Source of the DNA: Treponema sp.
GTDB lineage: Bacteria; Spirochaetota; Spirochaetia; Treponematales; Breznakiellaceae
Length of the DNA: 47,180 nucleotides
Assembly (NCBI GenBank): GCA_031276815.1
Contig: JAISMJ010000063.1
Coordinates: 1 to 47,180, forward strand
Reading direction: 5' to 3'
The stretch's first letter is position 1. Each line of letters starts with the position of its first letter. Below the pieces are notes generated by a model that was not told the origin of the DNA, made no database searches, and saw nothing but the letters and a program-made list of their open reading frames with translations. Shown one piece after another: positions 11,390-47,180 of this stretch. Both the position numbers and the translations under genes were made by a program.

Positions 11390-11653
11390 TTAGATGTATG
11401 GAGCCGCCGCGCATCTCACCGGATACGGTATGTTGATCACGCGGCGCTGTACGCCATGTCCCGCTTCGACCCGCCGTTTTTCCCTGAACAAGAGATGGCT
11501 ACTCTGCGGTACGTCTGCCGTCTCCGCGCAATCCGCCTGCGGGATGCGCGTCCACGCCGGATTCGCGCCCGCGCATTTGTCCTCGACATATTGATTCATA
11601 CATTTGAGCCATTGGTCAAATTTCGCGTCATTTGCGGGAATATAATCCGCCAT
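11390..11653 (-). pseudogene. Broken member of the repeated FDxWxxxMNQYV family
   Basis: Starting at ATG 11653 (AAGGA seven bases upstream), the first 39 codons (MADYIPANDAKFDQW..., MNQYV..KC) match the N-terminus of the intact gene at 24313-24981. After the residues IP the frame departs. A later match to the central domain (RRVAISCSGKNGGSKRD) is found in a different frame, so the gene has lost its middle and is frameshifted. The family function is unknown. Like the intact copy it lies directly downstream, on the same strand, of a 21-bp repeat array. Confidence 0.7.
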
Positions 11654-11786
11654 ACCGATATCCTTACGCCTATATATTCCGGAAACGGCAGCCGCTCCGG
11701 TTGATGCCGCGATACTTTGCGGGAATATGCCCGCGATACGTCCGGTTACAAAGCGCAAACCCAGCCCCGCGTGTGTTTTTACATGA

Positions 11787-12311
11787 GTTAGAAAGAGTAT
11801 TAATTGATATACGAAAGGCATATATCGAGTTAGAAAAAGTATGTCTTGAATTAGAGAAAAAATTTCTCGAGTTAGAAAAAGTATAACTCGAGTTAGAAAA
11901 AAAATTTCTCGAGTTAGAAAAAGTATAACTCGGGTTAGAAAAAAAATTTCTCAAGTTAGAAAAAGTATAACTCGAGTTAGAAAAAGTATAACTCGGGTTA
12001 GAAAAAGTATAACTCGAGTTAGAAAAAGTATAACTCGGGTTAGAAAAGTTATGACTCAAGTTAGAAAAAGTATGATTTGAGTTAGAAAAGTTATGACTCA
12101 AGTTAGAAAAAGTATGATTTGAGTTAGAAAAAATATAACTCAGGTTAGAAAAGTTATGACTCAAGTTAGAAAAAGTATGACTCAAGTTAGAAAAGTTATA
12201 ACTCAAGTTAGAAAAAGTATGACTTGGGTTAGAAAAAGTATGACTTGGGTTAGAAAATCCATATCGTGTGTTATAAAGATTATTACTTGAGGTACAAAAA
12301 GACTAGCGCAC
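11787..12311. repeat. 25-unit tandem array, 21-bp period, with TAACTCGAGTTA palindromes
   Basis: The unit begins GTTAGAAAAAGTATAACTC and is exactly 21 bases. Starts can be read at 11787, 11829, 11850, 11871, 11892 and onward every 21 bases to 12249, with decayed units at about 11808, 12270 and 12291, and no insertion or deletion across the readable units. Unit junctions form a 12-base palindrome, TAACTCGAGTTA or variants (TGACTCAAGTTA, TTTCTCGAGTTA). On the minus strand two frames stay open (heptads SYTFSNS and LTRVILF), but neither has a credible start. It lies about 130 bases upstream of the family pseudogene. Confidence 0.95.
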
Positions 12312-20106: not shown

Positions 20107-20418
20107 CTATGCCCGCCCGTTGATCTTGTCTTTTATTTGCTCCGCAACCGTAGCGCCGTCTTTCGTTTTTACGGCAAGCAGGAACAACCCTTTGCCTTGT
20201 GAAAGTTGCTCCCATATCTCGCCGGTGACGGCTTTTTCTTTGGAGTCTTGATTAGTGGCATAGGGTTCGCCCTTGTATTCTATGACCACTATACGCCCGT
20301 TATGAAGCCGGACTATACAATCGGGATAGAAGAAATCCGTTGACGCGGGGAGTTTGAAAGAAGCGGGATGTTTTGCTACGTTGCGAAGCCAATTTCTCTG
20401 ATACGTTTTAAGTTCCAT
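20107..20418 (-). pseudogene. Type III restriction subunit (Res) with its helicase deleted
   Basis: 103 codons. The first residues MELKTYQR match the very start of Type III Res proteins (helicase Q-motif region). From NWLRNVAKHP onward the sequence matches the extreme C-terminal PD-(D/E)XK nuclease domain: FYPDCIVRLHNGRIVVIEYKG supplies D...EYK. The ~800 residues between, which carry the helicase, are missing, so an in-frame internal deletion is inferred. The ATG lies one base beyond the mod stop codon, the usual mod-res spacing. A free-standing nuclease-domain protein could still be made, but restriction needs the helicase. Confidence 0.65.
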
Positions 20419-20563
20419 GCTACCACGCCTTTATATCATAAGGCGTTTGTTTGACGATAATGTTGTTGCTGGCGAGGTTCGGCTGGGGAAGCCGCATCGC
20501 TTCGCCATACGCGACAAGGCGGCGATACGCTATCGCCGCGCCGTCATGTACGCCCAGAACCGG

Positions 20564-21859
20564 CTACTGCGCGTCATGTTCGCGGCATACCCGCCGGTTC
20601 AGCGGCGTCTTGGTTTCGGCGGCGTAGAGAGGCGCGGCGCGATGTTCAAACGCTATATCCCGCTTTAGGCGCTGCTTATTGTCAACTACATCGCCTCCCA
20701 AGGTAAAGAAGCGGAATCCGCCGCCGCCCGTCCAGCCCACCGCTTGCGATATGCCGCCTTGCTCTCCGTCTATGACGCGCTTGAGCCGCGCGGCGCAGAG
20801 GGTTTTTGCCTGTTCGCCTATTTCCACGCCGATATACCGCCGCCCCATCTTATGAGCCACCGCGGCGGTTGTGCCGGAGCCAAGAAAACTGTCAAGCACA
20901 TAATCGCCGGGGGCGGTGGATACTTCTATGATTCTTTTTAGTAAATATTCCGGTTTAGGAGTATCACAAAGAGTATCATTACCAAACAGGGCTTTTAGTT
21001 CATCCCGTGCGTCAGCGTTATTAGAAAGTCCAATCCACATTGTTTCAGGTATGCTTCTTGCGCTTTCCTTTAAAAACAGCTTTCGGTATAGAATATCTCC
21101 TTTTACAACAAGCCGGTTTTCCGCCTCCAGCCGTTTCATAGTATCGTGACTGAGAAGCCATAGCCGCCGTGAAAACTTCTTGCCATCATGCATGGTATAT
21201 TCAAATTCAAAACAACACTGTTTTCTTGTGCATAATCCCTGTAGTCTATATACGCCGCGCTTATCATTATCAGGGTTCTTATATACGCTTCTGGTATTTT
21301 CATCAAGAACAATACGATTGATATACAATGATTGCGCCCGTTTAGCGTAACATATAATATGGTCATGCATTATACTGAAATACCGCGATGCGTTATCCTT
21401 GCCTCTTTTTTTGTGCCATAGTATATGCGCGACAAAATTATTCCGTCCAAAAATCTCATCGCATATGACTTTTATGTATGCTTGTTCATTATCGTCTAAC
21501 TGAATAAAGAGCGCCCCGTCCTCCCGCAGAAACTGCTTGAGCGTTTCAAGGCGGAGATACATCATGGAAAGCCACCGCGTATGCTCTTTATTATCGTCAT
21601 AACGCTTAAACTCGCCGCTGGTATTATACGGCGGGTCTATGTAGATGCACTTCACCTTTCCGGCATAGAAGGGCAGCAAGGCTTCCAGAGCTTCGAGGTT
21701 ATCGCCCTGTACTATCAGGTTTCCTGTACCGGGATCGCCGTAACTGAAGCGCTCTTCTTCCAGCAAAAGACGGTATTCAGCGCGGGCGGCGGCTTCAAGG
21801 TCTTCCTCTCTACCCATCCACTGTAACGTGGGCATCAAGGCGTCTTTACCGTTTGCCAT
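20564..21859 (-). CDS. mod: Type III DNA adenine methyltransferase (Mod), copy 1, C-terminally truncated
   Basis: 431 residues, beta-class N6-adenine methyltransferase. Catalytic motif DPPYNTS is at about 75-78, and the AdoMet motif DSFLGSGTTAAVAHKMGRRY is near the C-terminal third. It would methylate one strand of an asymmetric site. Compared with copy 2, the ends match closely but the middle (about 130-310, target recognition) is different. An amber stop at 20566-20564 cuts the reading frame. In the same frame beyond it homology continues to TAG at 20422-20420, but with a 126-base in-frame deletion between GGCGCGGCG repeats. Core catalytic parts remain, so activity is possible. It starts at ATG 21859 (AAGG five bases upstream); MPTLQW at 21835 is an alternative. 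Confidence 0.85.
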   Translation of the reverse strand: MANGKDALMPTLQWMGREEDLEAAARAEYRLLLEEERFSYGDPGTGNLIVQGDNLEALEALLPFYAGKVKCIYIDPPYNTSGEFKRYDDNKEHTRWLSMMYLRLETLKQFLREDGALFIQLDDNEQAYIKVICDEIFGRNNFVAHILWHKKRGKDNASRYFSIMHDHIICYAKRAQSLYINRIVLDENTRSVYKNPDNDKRGVYRLQGLCTRKQCCFEFEYTMHDGKKFSRRLWLLSHDTMKRLEAENRLVVKGDILYRKLFLKESARSIPETMWIGLSNNADARDELKALFGNDTLCDTPKPEYLLKRIIEVSTAPGDYVLDSFLGSGTTAAVAHKMGRRYIGVEIGEQAKTLCAARLKRVIDGEQGGISQAVGWTGGGGFRFFTLGGDVVDNKQRLKRDIAFEHRAAPLYAAETKTPLNRRVCREHDAQ

Positions 21860-21937
21860 ACGAACCTTCGATGCGGCTTCATCGTTCCGCGCACTATCTT
21901 TCGCGCTTTCTCTTCTTCTTCTTCGCGCTGTTCATCG

Positions 21938-22114
21938 CTATAGATCATCATCGCTATCTTCATCATCATCATCGCTATCTTCTTCTTCAGTATCATCATC
22001 ATCCTCAGTCCACTCATACCCGCACTCAGGACATTCATACTGAAAGCCGTTAAAATAGGCGCCCTCTTCTCCGCATTGGGGGCAATCAGTTGTATCAGGA
22101 AAATCTTCGCTCAT
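21938..22114 (-). CDS. Small acidic zinc-ribbon protein, copy 1 (58 residues)
   Basis: A 58-codon gene from ATG 22114 to TAG 21938, preceded by GGAG. It begins MSEDFPDTTDCPQCG, has a second knuckle ECPECGYEW, and ends in an almost purely Asp/Glu tail of about 22 residues. The four-cysteine ribbon resembles the N-terminal zinc ribbon of PhnA-type proteins, but the rest of PhnA is absent. It is paralogous to the 78-residue protein at 23915-24151. Each of the two lies immediately upstream of a Mod gene, which suggests a linked role such as a regulator, chaperone or DNA mimic; none is established. Confidence 0.75.
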   Translation of the reverse strand: MSEDFPDTTDCPQCGEEGAYFNGFQYECPECGYEWTEDDDDTEEEDSDDDDEDSDDDL

Positions 22115-22243
22115 AGTCCGCTCCTTATATCTATCATTGTTACACTATATTTCTCAAAATATCAAGCGTAGCATTGCACAACCCTCTTGCATGGTACCGG
22201 TATAAGCATATATACGCTCCGCCTGTGTTCCGCTTCCCCTACC

Positions 22244-23815
22244 CTATCGCCACGCCTTTATATCATAAGGCGTTTGTTTGAAGATAATGTTGTTGTTGGC
22301 GAGGCTCATTCGGGAAAGCCGAGTCGCTTCTCCGTACACGACAAGGCGGCGATATGCTATCGCCGCGCCGCTTTCTTGCGCGGCGGCGTCAATTGCGCGA
22401 AGGATAGCGTTGAGCGTTGCATGGGTCAGCACATTCCCGCGGTCTATCCGCGTATCTCCTGCCACGCCGTTATACAACAGCGCGTACGCCGCGCCCTCAT
22501 GCGCGCCTAAAAACGGCGAATGGGCGTCGTGTCCGCGGCATATCCGCCGGTTCAGCGGCGTCTTGGTTTCCGTGAAGTAGATATGCGCGGCGAGCTGGTC
22601 AAACGATATATCCCGCTGTATCCGCCGCTCGTCATCAAACACCGCGTCTCCTAAGGTAAAAAAGCGGAATCCGCTGCCGCCCGTCCAGCCTGCCGCTCGC
22701 GATACGCCGCCTTGCTCGCCGTCTATGACGCGCTTGAGCCGCGCGGCGCAGTGAGTCTTTGCTTGTTCGCCCGTTTCCACGCCGGTATACCGCCGCCCCA
22801 TCTTATGAGCCACCGCGGCGGTTGTGCCGGAGCCAAGAAAACTGTCAAGCACATAATCGCCGGTGGCGGCGGCAAGGGCAAGGATCCTTTGTATAAGGCG
22901 TTCAGGTTTGGGCGTGGAAAAGGGATCATCAGGAAAGAGCGCTTTGATTTCTTTTTTCGCTTCTTGATTATCTCCAACTTCATCTCTTGTCCCGATAGTG
23001 AGCGGAACAACGCCTTCTTTTACTTCCGATAGAAATTTTTTAGAACGCGGGGCATCATCGCCATGAGCGCCAAACCAGATTCTCTTATCCTTGATGAGTT
23101 CCTGCATCCGTTCTTTTGTTGTCATCCAACTTCTACTTTTAGGCGGCATACATTCTTTACCGGAGGGGCTTATTATGGGATATATACACTGTTTACGCGG
23201 CGTTTTTACATGACAGGGATGAGACGCCCGCACTCCTCGCGGGTCGTTATCAGGATTTGTATACTTTTTTAAGCTGCTTTCGGCGCGTTCCAACAAACGG
23301 GGACGCCACGTATCCTTATGTCTCGCATGACACACTATATGGTCATGATTATCGCTAAAGTATCTTGCATCGTTAGCGCGCGTATGTTTCTTTTGCCATA
23401 CTACATTCGCGACAACATTATTTCTTCCAAAAATTTCATCGCATATAACTTTCAAATAATGACTTTCATCGTCATCAATGCTTATCCATATACTCCCGTC
23501 CTCCCTCAGAAATTGCTTGAGCATTTCAAGACGGGGATACATCATGGAAAGCCAGATCGTATGCTTCTTATTATCATCATACTGCTCAAACGCGCTTCCG
23601 GTATTATACGGCGGGTCTATGCGGATGCGCTTCACGTGTCCGGCATAAAAGGGCAGCAAGGCTTTCAGAGCCTCAAGATTATCGCCCTGTACTATCAGGT
23701 TTCCCGTACCGGGATCGCCGTAACTGAAACGTTCTTCTTCCGTCAAAAGACGGTAAACAGCGCGGGAGGCGGCGGTAAGGGCTTCCTCTCTGCCCAGCCA
23801 CTGCAAAACGGGCAT
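22244..23815 (-). CDS. mod: Type III DNA adenine methyltransferase (Mod), copy 2
   Basis: 523 residues, apparently full length. DPPYNTG is at 67-70 and DSFLGSGTTAAVAHKMGRRY near residue 315. The C-terminal tail ends NNIIFKQTPYDIKAW. The N-terminal ~110 and C-terminal ~180 residues are highly similar to copy 1, while the central target-recognition part is unrelated or strongly diverged, implying a different recognition sequence. ATG 23815 has AAGGA eight bases upstream. No res gene follows this copy; the acidic zinc-ribbon copy 1 comes next instead. The arrangement reads as a tandem duplication of a zinc-ribbon-mod cassette. Confidence 0.93.
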   Translation of the reverse strand: MPVLQWLGREEALTAASRAVYRLLTEEERFSYGDPGTGNLIVQGDNLEALKALLPFYAGHVKRIRIDPPYNTGSAFEQYDDNKKHTIWLSMMYPRLEMLKQFLREDGSIWISIDDDESHYLKVICDEIFGRNNVVANVVWQKKHTRANDARYFSDNHDHIVCHARHKDTWRPRLLERAESSLKKYTNPDNDPRGVRASHPCHVKTPRKQCIYPIISPSGKECMPPKSRSWMTTKERMQELIKDKRIWFGAHGDDAPRSKKFLSEVKEGVVPLTIGTRDEVGDNQEAKKEIKALFPDDPFSTPKPERLIQRILALAAATGDYVLDSFLGSGTTAAVAHKMGRRYTGVETGEQAKTHCAARLKRVIDGEQGGVSRAAGWTGGSGFRFFTLGDAVFDDERRIQRDISFDQLAAHIYFTETKTPLNRRICRGHDAHSPFLGAHEGAAYALLYNGVAGDTRIDRGNVLTHATLNAILRAIDAAAQESGAAIAYRRLVVYGEATRLSRMSLANNNIIFKQTPYDIKAWR

Positions 23816-23914: not shown

Positions 23915-24151
23915 CTATAGATCTTCATCTATATCTTCTTCTTCAATCACCTCCTCATCTTCTATAATATCTTCTTCAAAATCTATCACGTCATCATCCT
24001 CCTCCTTGTCCCACTCATACCCGCAATCAGGGCATTCATAATTGAAGCCGTTCACACAGACGGCTACCTGTCCGCAATTTGGGCATTCGGCTGTATCTTC
24101 AACCTTTTCCTGCCACTCATCATCATCAAACGTACCAAAATCTTTAGTCAT
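23915..24151 (-). CDS. Small acidic zinc-ribbon protein, copy 2 (78 residues)
   Basis: 78 residues: a short acidic head, a four-cysteine ribbon (ECPNCG ... ECPDCGYEWDKEE, about 22-48), and a C-terminal tail of ~30 residues that is nearly all Asp, Glu and Ile/Val. Paralogue of the 58-residue gene at 21938-22114, with about ten extra residues before the ribbon. The strong negative charge could mimic nucleic acid or bind a basic partner. AAAAGGAG lies before the ATG. It is the first gene of the minus-strand cassette leading into Mod copy 2, with about 100 bases between them. Confidence 0.85.
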   Translation of the reverse strand: MTKDFGTFDDDEWQEKVEDTAECPNCGQVAVCVNGFNYECPDCGYEWDKEEDDDVIDFEEDIIEDEEVIEEEDIDEDL

Positions 24152-24312: not shown

Positions 24313-24981
24313 TCAGGGAACAATCGCGCTTTGTATTTCGGTATAATCCCCCCGCTTGCCCGTTTCGTTCTGCCACTGCATAGCGAGGTACGCGGTCTTG
24401 CCCCGCTGCTCCTCCTCGAACTCAAGGATGTGGGGGCTGCGGGTGGCAAGTTCGGTGTGGGGAAGCTTCTTGGGGTCTTTCGGAGATGCGTCAAAGATAC
24501 CCCATGAGATAATAGCGCCGTTCATGCCGTCCGGTATGGCGCGTCTCGCGGTTCCCTCGTCATGGAAGGAGACGATGAGGCGGCGTATGCCCTTCACCTC
24601 AATATTAAAGACCGGCATGGTTTTGGGTTTGCCGATGGGCGTACGGGTGGCGTCGTGGTTAGGGATGCCCATCGCCGTGCGGTCCTCGTCCGTAACCGGC
24701 GGGAAGCGCAGGTATTGGTTCACAAACGGGCGGATCGCCTTCTTCGCCTCGTCTTTCATGTCGTTCTTCGCTTCCGTGTCCACAGGCGTATGGGGACCGA
24801 TGGTCCGCGCGTACGCCGTACTCCATGATGCGTACACATTGTCCATCGCCGTCCGCACCGCCGCGGGAATATGCGTCCACTCCGGCTCGCTTCCGCTACA
24901 CTTTTGGTTGACATACTGATTCATAAACTTGAACCACTTATCAAATTCCGTATCGCTTAATGAAAGGTAGTCCTTTCCCAT
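24313..24981 (-). CDS. Intact member of the repeated FDxWxxxMNQYV family, function unknown
   Basis: About 222 residues from ATG 24981, chosen over the ATG at 24987 because GGAGG then has an eight-base spacer and the start aligns with the 11653 copy. The N-terminal part is helical (SDTEFDKWFKFMNQYVNQKC). A linker follows, then a beta-rich C-terminal half (FNIEVKGIRRLIVSFHDEG ... LEFEEEQRGKTAYLAMQWQN) that looks like a small immunoglobulin/fibronectin-like fold. There is no signal peptide. Related copies are the pseudogene at 11390-11653 and the partial gene at 47024-47180. It is preceded by a strong promoter and a leader made of 21-bp repeats. I do not know its function. Confidence 0.85.
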   Translation of the reverse strand: MGKDYLSLSDTEFDKWFKFMNQYVNQKCSGSEPEWTHIPAAVRTAMDNVYASWSTAYARTIGPHTPVDTEAKNDMKDEAKKAIRPFVNQYLRFPPVTDEDRTAMGIPNHDATRTPIGKPKTMPVFNIEVKGIRRLIVSFHDEGTARRAIPDGMNGAIISWGIFDASPKDPKKLPHTELATRSPHILEFEEEQRGKTAYLAMQWQNETGKRGDYTEIQSAIVP

Positions 24982-25010
24982 CTCCATCTCCTCCCTTTTC
25001 CAACATAGTT

Positions 25011-25304
25011 ACAGACCTCTGTAAATGTTTTACAGACCTCTTAAAATGATCTACAGACCTCTGTAAAACATTTACAGACCTCTTAAAATCATTTACAGAC
25101 CTCTGTAAATGATTTACAGACCTCTTAAAATGATCTACAGACCTCTGTAAATGATTTACAGACCTCTTAAAATCATTTACAGACCTCTTAAAGTGATCTA
25201 CAGACCTCTGTAAATGTTTTACAAAAATCTTTCAAAGAATCACAGCCTTCTATGGACGCTCTATAAAAAAATTAACGTGATCTGTAGACCGCTTATGAAG
25301 CATT
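25011..25304. repeat. 14-unit tandem array, 21-bp period, of TTTACAGACCTCTGTAAA palindromes
   Basis: ACAGACCTCT begins at 25011, 25032, 25053, 25074, 25095, 25116, 25137, 25158, 25179 and 25200, exactly every 21 bases. Decayed but in-phase units follow at 25221, 25242, 25263 and 25284. About half the good units complete an 18-base perfect dyad, TTTACAGA-CC-TCTGTAAA; the others end TCTTAAAA. The array ends on the -10 box of the promoter driving the family gene, so it would be transcribed as a ~300-base leader. One minus-strand frame is open (heptads like RSVNDFK) but has no start codon. Confidence 0.97.
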
Positions 25305-25331
25305 ATATACACTAGAAGCAAAGTATGTCAA
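25302..25331 (-). promoter_or_regulatory. Strong promoter reading into the 21-bp array and the family gene
   Basis: On the minus strand TTGACA (25331-25326) and TATAAT (25307-25302), both perfect consensus, are 18 bases apart. Transcription would start near 25295, about 314 bases before the family gene's start codon. Confidence 0.8.
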
Positions 25332-26004: not shown

Positions 26005-27213
26005 ATGAACAATCTCTTTATTACCAAAATCATGATAGATGCGCTGCGTCATGTATCCGGTTTAGCGATTCCACTATCGGAACATGAGCGCAAACATCTT
26101 ATACTGACCGGCAAAAATGGCAGCGGAAAAACGACTTTGCTTGAAACTATGCGTGATTATATGAGGCGTCCCTCGTTTTGTCGTGACGCGGACGGCTCCG
26201 CGTATCTCTCTGATCCCACGGGAACACAAAAGCCGGAAATCCACGGTATGAATACATCCGAAGAAGCTTTTCTTTCCCCCCATAATAAAACAGCCGGCGC
26301 TATACGCATATATGTCAACGCTCCTGACGGGCAACCCGTTCACGGCGTATTCAATGATACTCTGGTCGTGTATATTTCCGCCCACCGGTTACTGACCATT
26401 CCTGTTGCAAAGGCAATCGAAAGAGTCGACGCCGGTACGCATGTCCCCCTTGATGCGGATCTCAGCTCCGGTTTTCTACAATACATGCTGTATTTGGATT
26501 ATCAGAAGTTATCCGCCGCAAGTGAAGGGAACCATGCGACCGAGTCCCGCATAGCGCAATGGTTTGACCGTTTTTTACAAACCCTGCGTGAGGTGTACGG
26601 CTGTCCGGCTCTTGCGTTAAAAAAAGAAGCGAAGGACCTTAATTTCAATATAGTCATGCCGGACCGCGAACCGTTCAGCTTACAGCACATGGCAGACGGC
26701 TATTCCGCCCTTCTTAAAATCGTCATGGAACTGATAATGCGTATGGAACATCAGGCGCATACTGCCTATGATATGCCGGGTATCGTGCTGATAGACGAAC
26801 TTGAGGCTCATCTGCATATTGAACTACAAAAAAAAGTGCTGCCCTTCCTGACCGGTATGTTTCCTAATATCCAATTTATCATAAGCACTCATTCCCCCTT
26901 TGTGATTAGTTCTATTGACAAAGCAGTCATCTATGATCTGGAACATCAACAGCGTTTGGAAGACTTGAGCGCTTATTCCTACGAAGGGATCGTTGAATAC
27001 TATTTTAATACGGATATGTATTCTGATAAAATAAAGAGCCGGTTTGAACGGTATAAAGCATTGATAGCGAAGATACGCCGGACACCGGAAGAAAACGATG
27101 AGCTTGTTGAACTTATCGTCTATCTCAAGCAAATTCCTCCCGCCGCCGCTTCAGAATTGATATATTCTTTTCGGGAACTGGAACGGCAAAGGAAAGATAC
27201 GGCTCATGGTTAA
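26005..27213 (+). CDS. AAA/ABC-type ATPase of a Septu-like (PtuA) defence pair
   Basis: 402 residues of the OLD/RecF-like ABC ATPase group. Walker A GKNGSGKTT is at about 36-44, a signature-like ADGYSALLKIV comes before Walker B, Walker B GIVLIDELEAH is at 259-269, and H296 lies in the switch segment ISTHSPFVI. Such ATPases pair with HNH nucleases in the Septu (PtuA-PtuB) anti-phage system, where the ATPase forms the scaffold and nucleotide sensor. The following gene overlaps by eight bases and encodes an HNH protein, which is why Septu is proposed. No reverse transcriptase is nearby, so a retron form is unlikely. ATG 26005 follows AAGGGG by eight bases. Confidence 0.8.
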   Translation: MNNLFITKIMIDALRHVSGLAIPLSEHERKHLILTGKNGSGKTTLLETMRDYMRRPSFCRDADGSAYLSDPTGTQKPEIHGMNTSEEAFLSPHNKTAGAIRIYVNAPDGQPVHGVFNDTLVVYISAHRLLTIPVAKAIERVDAGTHVPLDADLSSGFLQYMLYLDYQKLSAASEGNHATESRIAQWFDRFLQTLREVYGCPALALKKEAKDLNFNIVMPDREPFSLQHMADGYSALLKIVMELIMRMEHQAHTAYDMPGIVLIDELEAHLHIELQKKVLPFLTGMFPNIQFIISTHSPFVISSIDKAVIYDLEHQQRLEDLSAYSYEGIVEYYFNTDMYSDKIKSRFERYKALIAKIRRTPEENDELVELIVYLKQIPPAAASELIYSFRELERQRKDTAHG

Positions 27214-27853
27214 GCTGCATAAGTCACCTCTTCCCGTTGGCGTTACCATTAAATCCGGGTTGGACTATCGCAAGGAGCCGGTCTTCTCAATAATCAAAGA
27301 CGATTGTAACAATAAATGCTATATATGCGAAGAAAAGGGAACTACAAGTATGCATGTGGAGCATCGTGTTTCGCAATCATTCGATCCGTCCCGTAAATAT
27401 GACTGGAACAATTTGTTGCTAAGTTGCGGTCATTGCAATCGCGTCAAGGGGAGCCGTTACAATACGATACTTGACTGTACGCGAGTTGATCCGGAAGCGT
27501 ATATCTCCCTGCGTATCGCAATAGGATTGTATGAAAGAGTAACGGTCATCAAAATAGGAGAGCGTGACGGCGTTGATGAGACAATACGGCTGCTTGATAC
27601 CGTATACAACGGCGAATCAACCGCTATATTGAAATATGAATGTAAAAATCTGCGCGCCCATGTACTTGCCGAAGTACAAACATTCCAGCAGTTGCTTGAC
27701 GGATACTTTGAAGAGAACGATACGGCTCTTAAAGAGGCTTTCCAGAGAAAAATCAGCGAAAGCATTAGTCGCGCTTCCAATTTCGCCTCTTTTAAGAGGG
27801 GCATAATCAAGAATAATGATACCTTGTTTGCATTATTCAAAGACACGCTATAA
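27206..27853 (+). CDS. HNH endonuclease of a Septu-like (PtuB) defence pair
   Basis: 215 residues. The HNH core is CYIC (C38, C41), then MHVEHRV (E52, H53), DWNNLLLSC (N69) and CGHC (C74, C77) before NRVKGS, i.e. zinc cysteines framing the beta-beta-alpha metal nuclease. The N-terminus (VKLHKSPLP) and the WNNLLLSC...KG block resemble the HNH proteins associated with PtuA-type ATPases. The C-terminal ~100 residues are helical, with an RAHVLAEVQTF stretch. The eight-base overlap with the ATPase stop codon indicates coupled translation. The target, phage DNA or host nucleic acid, cannot be read from sequence. Confidence 0.82.
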   Translation: MVKLHKSPLPVGVTIKSGLDYRKEPVFSIIKDDCNNKCYICEEKGTTSMHVEHRVSQSFDPSRKYDWNNLLLSCGHCNRVKGSRYNTILDCTRVDPEAYISLRIAIGLYERVTVIKIGERDGVDETIRLLDTVYNGESTAILKYECKNLRAHVLAEVQTFQQLLDGYFEENDTALKEAFQRKISESISRASNFASFKRGIIKNNDTLFALFKDTL

Positions 27854-46997: not shown

Positions 46998-47035
46998 GGA
47001 ATAACCCGTTATGGAATAACTCGTTATGGAATAAC
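46998..47035. repeat. 15-bp tandem repeat over the stop codon of the family gene
   Basis: GGAATAAC begins at 46998, 47013 and 47028, exactly 15 bases apart. On the minus strand this repeats the last codons and stop of the upstream gene (VIP-stop-R) two more times. Confidence 0.8.
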
Positions 47036-47180
47036 GGCGGAATATATCTCGCTCCAGTCCTCTTTCAGCACGGTCCCGTTTTCCCATCTCGCCGCAAAAT
47101 ACACCCGCTTCCCCCGCTCGTCTTCTTCAAACGTCAGTTCCAGCGGGCTTTTCGTGGCAAAGTCCGAATGAAGCAGGTCC
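47024..47180 (-). CDS. Third member of the repeated FDxWxxxMNQYV family (3' end only)
   Basis: The last 51 codons before TAA 47026-47024 are visible; the gene enters from beyond the window. The residues (LHSDFATKSPLELTFEEDE ... RVYFAARWENGT ... EIYSAVIP) align with the C-terminus of the gene at 24313 (LPHTELATRSPHILEFEEEQ ... EIQSAIVP). Its 5' part, and any repeat array in front of it, are outside the window. Confidence 0.85.
   Translation of the reverse strand, partial: DLLHSDFATKSPLELTFEEDERGKRVYFAARWENGTVLKEDWSEIYSAVIP

Follow-up and report, generated by a model that had tools for sequence, protein, structure and literature searches.

By the window we mean the whole stretch of DNA analyzed here, 47,180 nucleotides in length. 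On its minus strand lies a gene preceded by a tandem array of 21-bp units and by a strong promoter (Table 1). The window holds two further copies of this gene. We found that the neighbors highlighted in a preliminary description of this DNA, a restriction-modification remnant and a Septu-like pair, are real genes. The Septu pair looks complete, and the stretch from 20107 to 23815 is a decayed, duplicated type III system. However, no neighbor recurs at other loci of the gene family. A functional link of the family gene to Septu (PtuA/PtuB) or to type III restriction-modification was therefore rejected, and we regard the neighbors as incidental. A small ORF separates the family gene from the methyltransferase. 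Its product has a part resembling a zinc ribbon and a strongly acidic tail and had no confident family.

Table 1. Features of the window and period-23 arrays of the source genome
Feature	Position	Strand	Remarks
Family gene	24313..24987	minus	224 aa; predicted N-terminal helical bundle (~1-110) and C-terminal Fn3 domain (~118-224)
Shine-Dalgarno sequence GGGAGGAG	24988..24995	minus	Read from sequence
21-bp tandem array	25009..25244	minus	Ten near-perfect and one to two decayed units; 42-bp super-period
Degenerate units between promoter and array	25245..25295	minus	Weak; array register kept
σ70 promoter, TTGACA-N18-TATAAT	25302..25331	minus	Perfect consensus, exact match
Second 21-bp array	11777..12300	minus	Unrelated unit (GAGTTATACTTTTTCTAACTC), ~25 units
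Decayed family gene	11483..11650	minus	N-terminal part; downstream of second array
Third family copy	47027..47179	minus	C-terminal end, cut by contig end
15-bp dyad repeats	46998-47035		CGTTATGGAATAACG type
Septu pair	26005-27853	plus	PtuA (402 aa), PtuB (215 aa)
Type III Mod methyltransferases	20564-21859, 22244-23815		Two paralogues
Type III restriction enzyme fragment	20107-20418		Short; after first Mod
Small ORF	23915-24151	minus	Between family gene and methyltransferase
Period-23 arrays	L134:1-530, L136:1498-3509, L136:16494-17404, L138:9235-9395
Period-23 arrays, continued	L139:4221-4909, L143:2219-3088, L145:10475-10591

The promoter had been described as a perfect consensus, and we confirmed this: it is the sole exact TTGACA-18-TATAAT in the window, and none occurred in 100 shuffles. 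TRF called the array at 25009-25223, with a period of 21 and 10.2 copies, and lag-21 scoring stretched it to 25244. There are no indels in the array. The earlier count of 14 units in exact 21-bp register holds for the ten near-perfect units, but the three or four on the promoter side are degenerate, and 14 is generous. Similarly, the 18-bp dyad TTTACAGACCTCTGTAAA said to occur in several units is exact only once (25092-25109), with four more occurrences that each have one mismatch. The dyad has 8-bp arms flanking two bases (TTTACAGA-CC-TCTGTAAA). Every other unit carries TTAAAA and lacks a good right arm, which gives the array its super-period. Only ~25 nt separate the array from the start region, and we found no terminator in this gap. 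No ORF of at least 60 aa with a start codon runs through the array. The array at this locus is very probably transcribed. The second in-frame ATG (24981) is more likely the start codon than the first (24987), judging by its better fit to the Shine-Dalgarno sequence.

The gene had been assigned to no known family. Consistently with this, the product had no Pfam family and no match among Pfam, NCBIfam, or PADLOC models, and a sequence-based search of solved structures found no match. Phage, viral-contig, and plasmid collections also gave no match, and we therefore rejected a viral or plasmid origin of the family gene. The predicted structure (mean pLDDT, 90) consists of a helical bundle at residues 1 to 110 followed by a separate domain at residues 118 to 224. 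VIA-align superposed 96 residues of this modeled domain on 4pbx (Z, 12.5; rmsd, 2.1), and as predicted it is an Fn3 beta sandwich. The helical bundle alone had no confident fold relative in Foldseek or VIA-align, DNA-binding folds included.

The source genome carries ~40 copies or fragments of the family gene. Of 145 genomes of the same taxonomic family, 86 have relatives; in a sample of 296 genomes from the phylum, only one genome outside that family has any. Sampling was one genome per species, and most of the genomes are drafts. The named contigs with relatives are metagenome-assembled genomes (MAGs) labeled Treponema or Spirochaetaceae, plus one labeled Planctomycetaceae. From isolate labels and the literature on such MAGs (PMC9137090), we infer that they come from termite guts. 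This is a large, unnamed gene family of termite-gut spirochetes, and it is without annotation. The contig binned as Planctomycetaceae (JAITOZ010000244.1) has both a family gene and a 21/42-bp array; transfer and misbinning are both possible. One subfamily has 15-bp dyad repeats right behind its stop codon, in the window and in L035, L047, and L054, and several contigs stop within near-identical copies of that subfamily's gene.

Arrays accompany the family. With a score threshold applied, a clear array with a period of 21, 42, or 63 bp lies just upstream of 154 of 176 nonredundant family genes (88%); among the other genes of the same DNA, the figure is 9 of 467. For 162 of the 176 genes, which come from 56 genomes, the best repeat lag is 21 or one of its multiples. 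In our first set, where the best lag was picked among all lags from 8 to 63, it was 21, 42, or 63 in 68 of 71 genes; further sets gave a multiple of 21 in 41/44 (partly overlapping the first set) and in 56/59. The single-contig genomes L214 and L118 also carry arrays, and thus the array is not an artifact of draft assembly. Unit number ranges from 3 to 52, with a median of 11. These results bear out two expectations of the preliminary description, namely, that homologues would have arrays of variable unit number with the phase preserved and that unit spacing at other loci would stay at multiples of 21 (or of 10 to 11) bases. The remaining 22 family genes have no clear array, and some of these have intact reading frames.

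Some arrays have no recognizable family gene. They account for ~9 of 23 period-21 segments in the 444 kb sampled from the source genome and for 3 of 44 in the DNA surrounding relatives' genes, and some of them may be remnants of lost copies. The source genome also has a second class of intergenic array, with a period of 23, dyad units, and few indels. These arrays sit between ordinary genes and not beside family genes, and several share CTGTTGAA-CACTTCAA. Periods other than the 21 type and 23 are almost absent from the 444 kb.

Over ~150 loci, the period and the dyad are conserved and the letters are free. The G+C content of the arrays runs from 28 to 80%. Unit similarity is at background between family proteins below ~50% identity, and even at 76 to 82% protein identity the units are often unrelated, still with a period of 21. 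L034 and L035 match at ~90% over the gene and downstream flank and at 85% upstream of the array, and their units have diverged. Close paralogues also differ in unit number (15.0 vs 12.6 for L004 and L028 and 15 vs 21 for L034 and L035), and the array is lost in L049. The ratio of indels to substitutions was 29/2977 in arrays vs 21/179 in nearby noncoding homologous DNA, a small sample; that is, indels were 12-fold rarer. We rejected diversity-generating mutagenesis as the source of the changes, as the substitution spectrum shows the ordinary transition bias.

We found that dyad symmetry exceeded that of column-permuted units, with a mean z of 2.2 to 2.3 in 59 arrays and of 1.4 in a replication set of 30 independent arrays. 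Mirror symmetry, the control, was not raised. Perfect arms of at least 5 bp occurred in 69 of 143 units vs ~20 expected. Because paralogues are related, t values overstate independence, and the replication set is the safeguard: a 10.5-bp periodicity of variability had a t of 4 in the first set and of 0.9 in the replication set and was not replicated. A simple count of within-array covariation gave a z of 6.8, yet it was positive in only 37 of 56 arrays and is blurred by register breaks. Intrinsic curvature was slightly higher than in column-permuted arrays (t, 3.2), a difference too weak to build a case on. Arrays of the same genome were less alike than arrays of equally related genes across genomes (mean, 0.546 vs 0.567 expected; p, ~0.006, in a permutation test that takes no account of shared ancestry). 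This hints at private addresses.

Could the arrays be neutral minisatellites that were inherited along with a mobile gene cassette and whose period of 21 bp is a relic? The arrays found apart from family genes, the existence of the 23-bp class, and the family genes that have no array would fit such an origin. In contrast, the units are saturated with change while the period has not drifted, indels are depleted, dyads are retained across unrelated units, and such arrays are rare at other genes. We consider neutral origin unlikely.

We also asked whether the arrays act as protein, RNA, or DNA. Array variability had no period-3 codon signal, and stop-free frames were not in excess of the number expected from the stop-bearing columns. 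Protein-coding or leader-peptide repeats were rejected on these grounds.

The preliminary description had suggested a repeated RNA hairpin in the leader. On such a reading, successive small hairpins of the 5' untranslated region would control translation or stability. The window locus, with its strong promoter upstream and the array so close to the start region, suits this idea, and the leader RNA indeed folds much better than shuffled sequences do (z, −8.7). However, the antisense strand is equally exceptional (z, −10.4), and among 59 arrays the sense strand folds better than the antisense in only 25. Arrays have no strand skew. If hairpin RNA were selected, single changes at paired positions should favor G-T over A-C mismatches on the transcribed strand. 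We found G-T:A-C mismatches from such changes at 328:340 in a first count and, on recounting, at 353:321 in the first set and 262:213 in the replication set, a slight excess at most. The suggested hairpin is thus not supported.

Promoters are enriched upstream of arrays, at 22 of 130 family loci vs 3.2 expected, as an RNA leader would require, but they are also enriched between array and gene, at 13 loci vs 1.4 expected (an antisense scan gave 10 upstream and 1 between). With promoters on either side, the array need not be transcribed. The description of the array as transcribed therefore suits the window locus but is not general. Across the family, the gaps between array and gene contain GC-rich hairpins immediately ahead of the ribosome site more often than shuffles do. 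Rfam gave only miRNA-precursor matches far below gathering scores, as is typical of hairpin-rich repeats. There is also no RNA reason for a period of exactly 21. We consider a leader RNA improbable, to about the same degree as neutral minisatellites.

A somewhat weaker case can be made for phase variation of a multigene family, with array unit number switching each gene as in Mycoplasma gallisepticum vlhA. The family is large and paralogous, has an array at each gene, and differs in unit number between close paralogues, with one array lost. However, the vlhA genes all have the same trinucleotide repeat, at a constant position ahead of the start site (PMC6258824), whereas the family units are private and variable in position. 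A signal-like N terminus was absent from 31 family members, as judged by crude hydropathy, and the product is thus no obvious surface antigen. Least probable of all is a type III toxin-antitoxin-like pair, in which the array would be transcribed into repeat RNAs that neutralize the encoded protein: the order of parts agrees with the ToxIN criteria of promoter, tandem repeats, (often) hairpin, and ORF (PMC8860590), and ~40 private copies per genome are compatible with orthogonal modules, but none of the 31 members had a ToxN-type or other type III toxin match in Pfam (nor was there an NCBIfam or PADLOC match), the protein has an Fn3 domain and no evident conserved catalytic set, ToxI repeat length varies between clusters while the family units keep one length and vary freely in sequence, and the window gap lacks a terminator, terminator-like hairpins in the gaps of the family being as frequent on the antisense strand as on the sense strand.

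We favor a role at the DNA level because 21 bp is two helical turns, the dyads suit a symmetric binder, and the spacing keeps the sites on one face. The suggestion of cooperative protein binding on one face, already made for the window locus, fits the 21-bp spacing kept over ~150 unrelated units, their dyads, and their few indels. Given the association, the exact period, the dyads, the depletion of indels, the turnover of sequence, and the lack of any sign of coding or clear sign of RNA function, we propose, with a probability of roughly 0.5, that each array is an operator-like DNA element that is private to its gene, controls it, and is occupied on one face at intervals of two turns. Protein binding, control of the gene, and the privacy of binding to each locus are the parts that we infer. 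Pseudopalindromic sites beside each family gene, set two turns of B-DNA (21 bp) apart, would be filled cooperatively on one face by a protein that spreads along the array. The array, which adjoins the promoter from upstream or lies between promoter and gene, would most likely set whether that single paralogue is transcribed, perhaps through a repressing or roadblock filament or as a switch set by the number of units. The unit sequence would turn over quickly, presumably via duplication and loss of units. Because of this turnover, the reader of the array would have to coevolve at each locus, in which case it would most simply be the gene's own product, or would have to read shape and symmetry.

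Several observations count against this DNA-operator reading. If one conserved protein were to read units as varied as these, it would have to coevolve rapidly. The pI of the family product is near neutral, and the predicted helical part has no confident match to a DNA-binding fold. The 22 of 176 genes that have no clear array, the 10.5-bp periodicity that was not replicated, and the small G-T excess in the replication set also weigh against it.

A stronger form of the operator model is that each copy has a private, rapidly rewritten DNA address, of which the geometry is read and the letters are kept unlike those of sister genes in the same cell, such that the protein or a partner acts on its own locus only. 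We offer this form tentatively and consider it rather doubtful. Normally, a cis element is recognized through a conserved sequence. Geometry that is conserved while sequence is free at ~150 loci raises the question of how a protein or DNA shape reads spacing and symmetry and the further question of what keeps dozens of sister genes distinct from one another. The analysis also draws attention to a large family without annotation, carried by abundant bacteria of the termite gut.

We found no paper describing such arrays in the open literature (subscription papers were outside the scope), and we compared them with known systems. Like REP and BIME elements, they are short intergenic palindromes, but REPs are one genome-wide sequence and are not tied to a single gene family. 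Like the vlhA promoters with their GAA repeats, they belong to a multigene family and form a repeat tract of variable unit number at each gene; unlike them, they have private 21-bp dyad units, a promoter on either side of the array, and products in which crude hydropathy showed no secretion signal. The window locus resembles type III toxin-antitoxin systems (ToxIN, CptIN, and TenpIN) in having a promoter, a tandem array, and a gene in that order and differs from them in its protein, which is unrelated by any library tested, in repeats fixed at 21, and in having no clear RNA signature. In known operator- or iteron-type arrays, phased repeats spaced at about two helical turns have a conserved sequence that is read by a known protein. 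The family arrays share with these the dyad or direct sites, the two-turn spacing, and the position beside a gene, and cooperative binding is plausible; unlike them, the family arrays keep only the geometry over ~150 loci.
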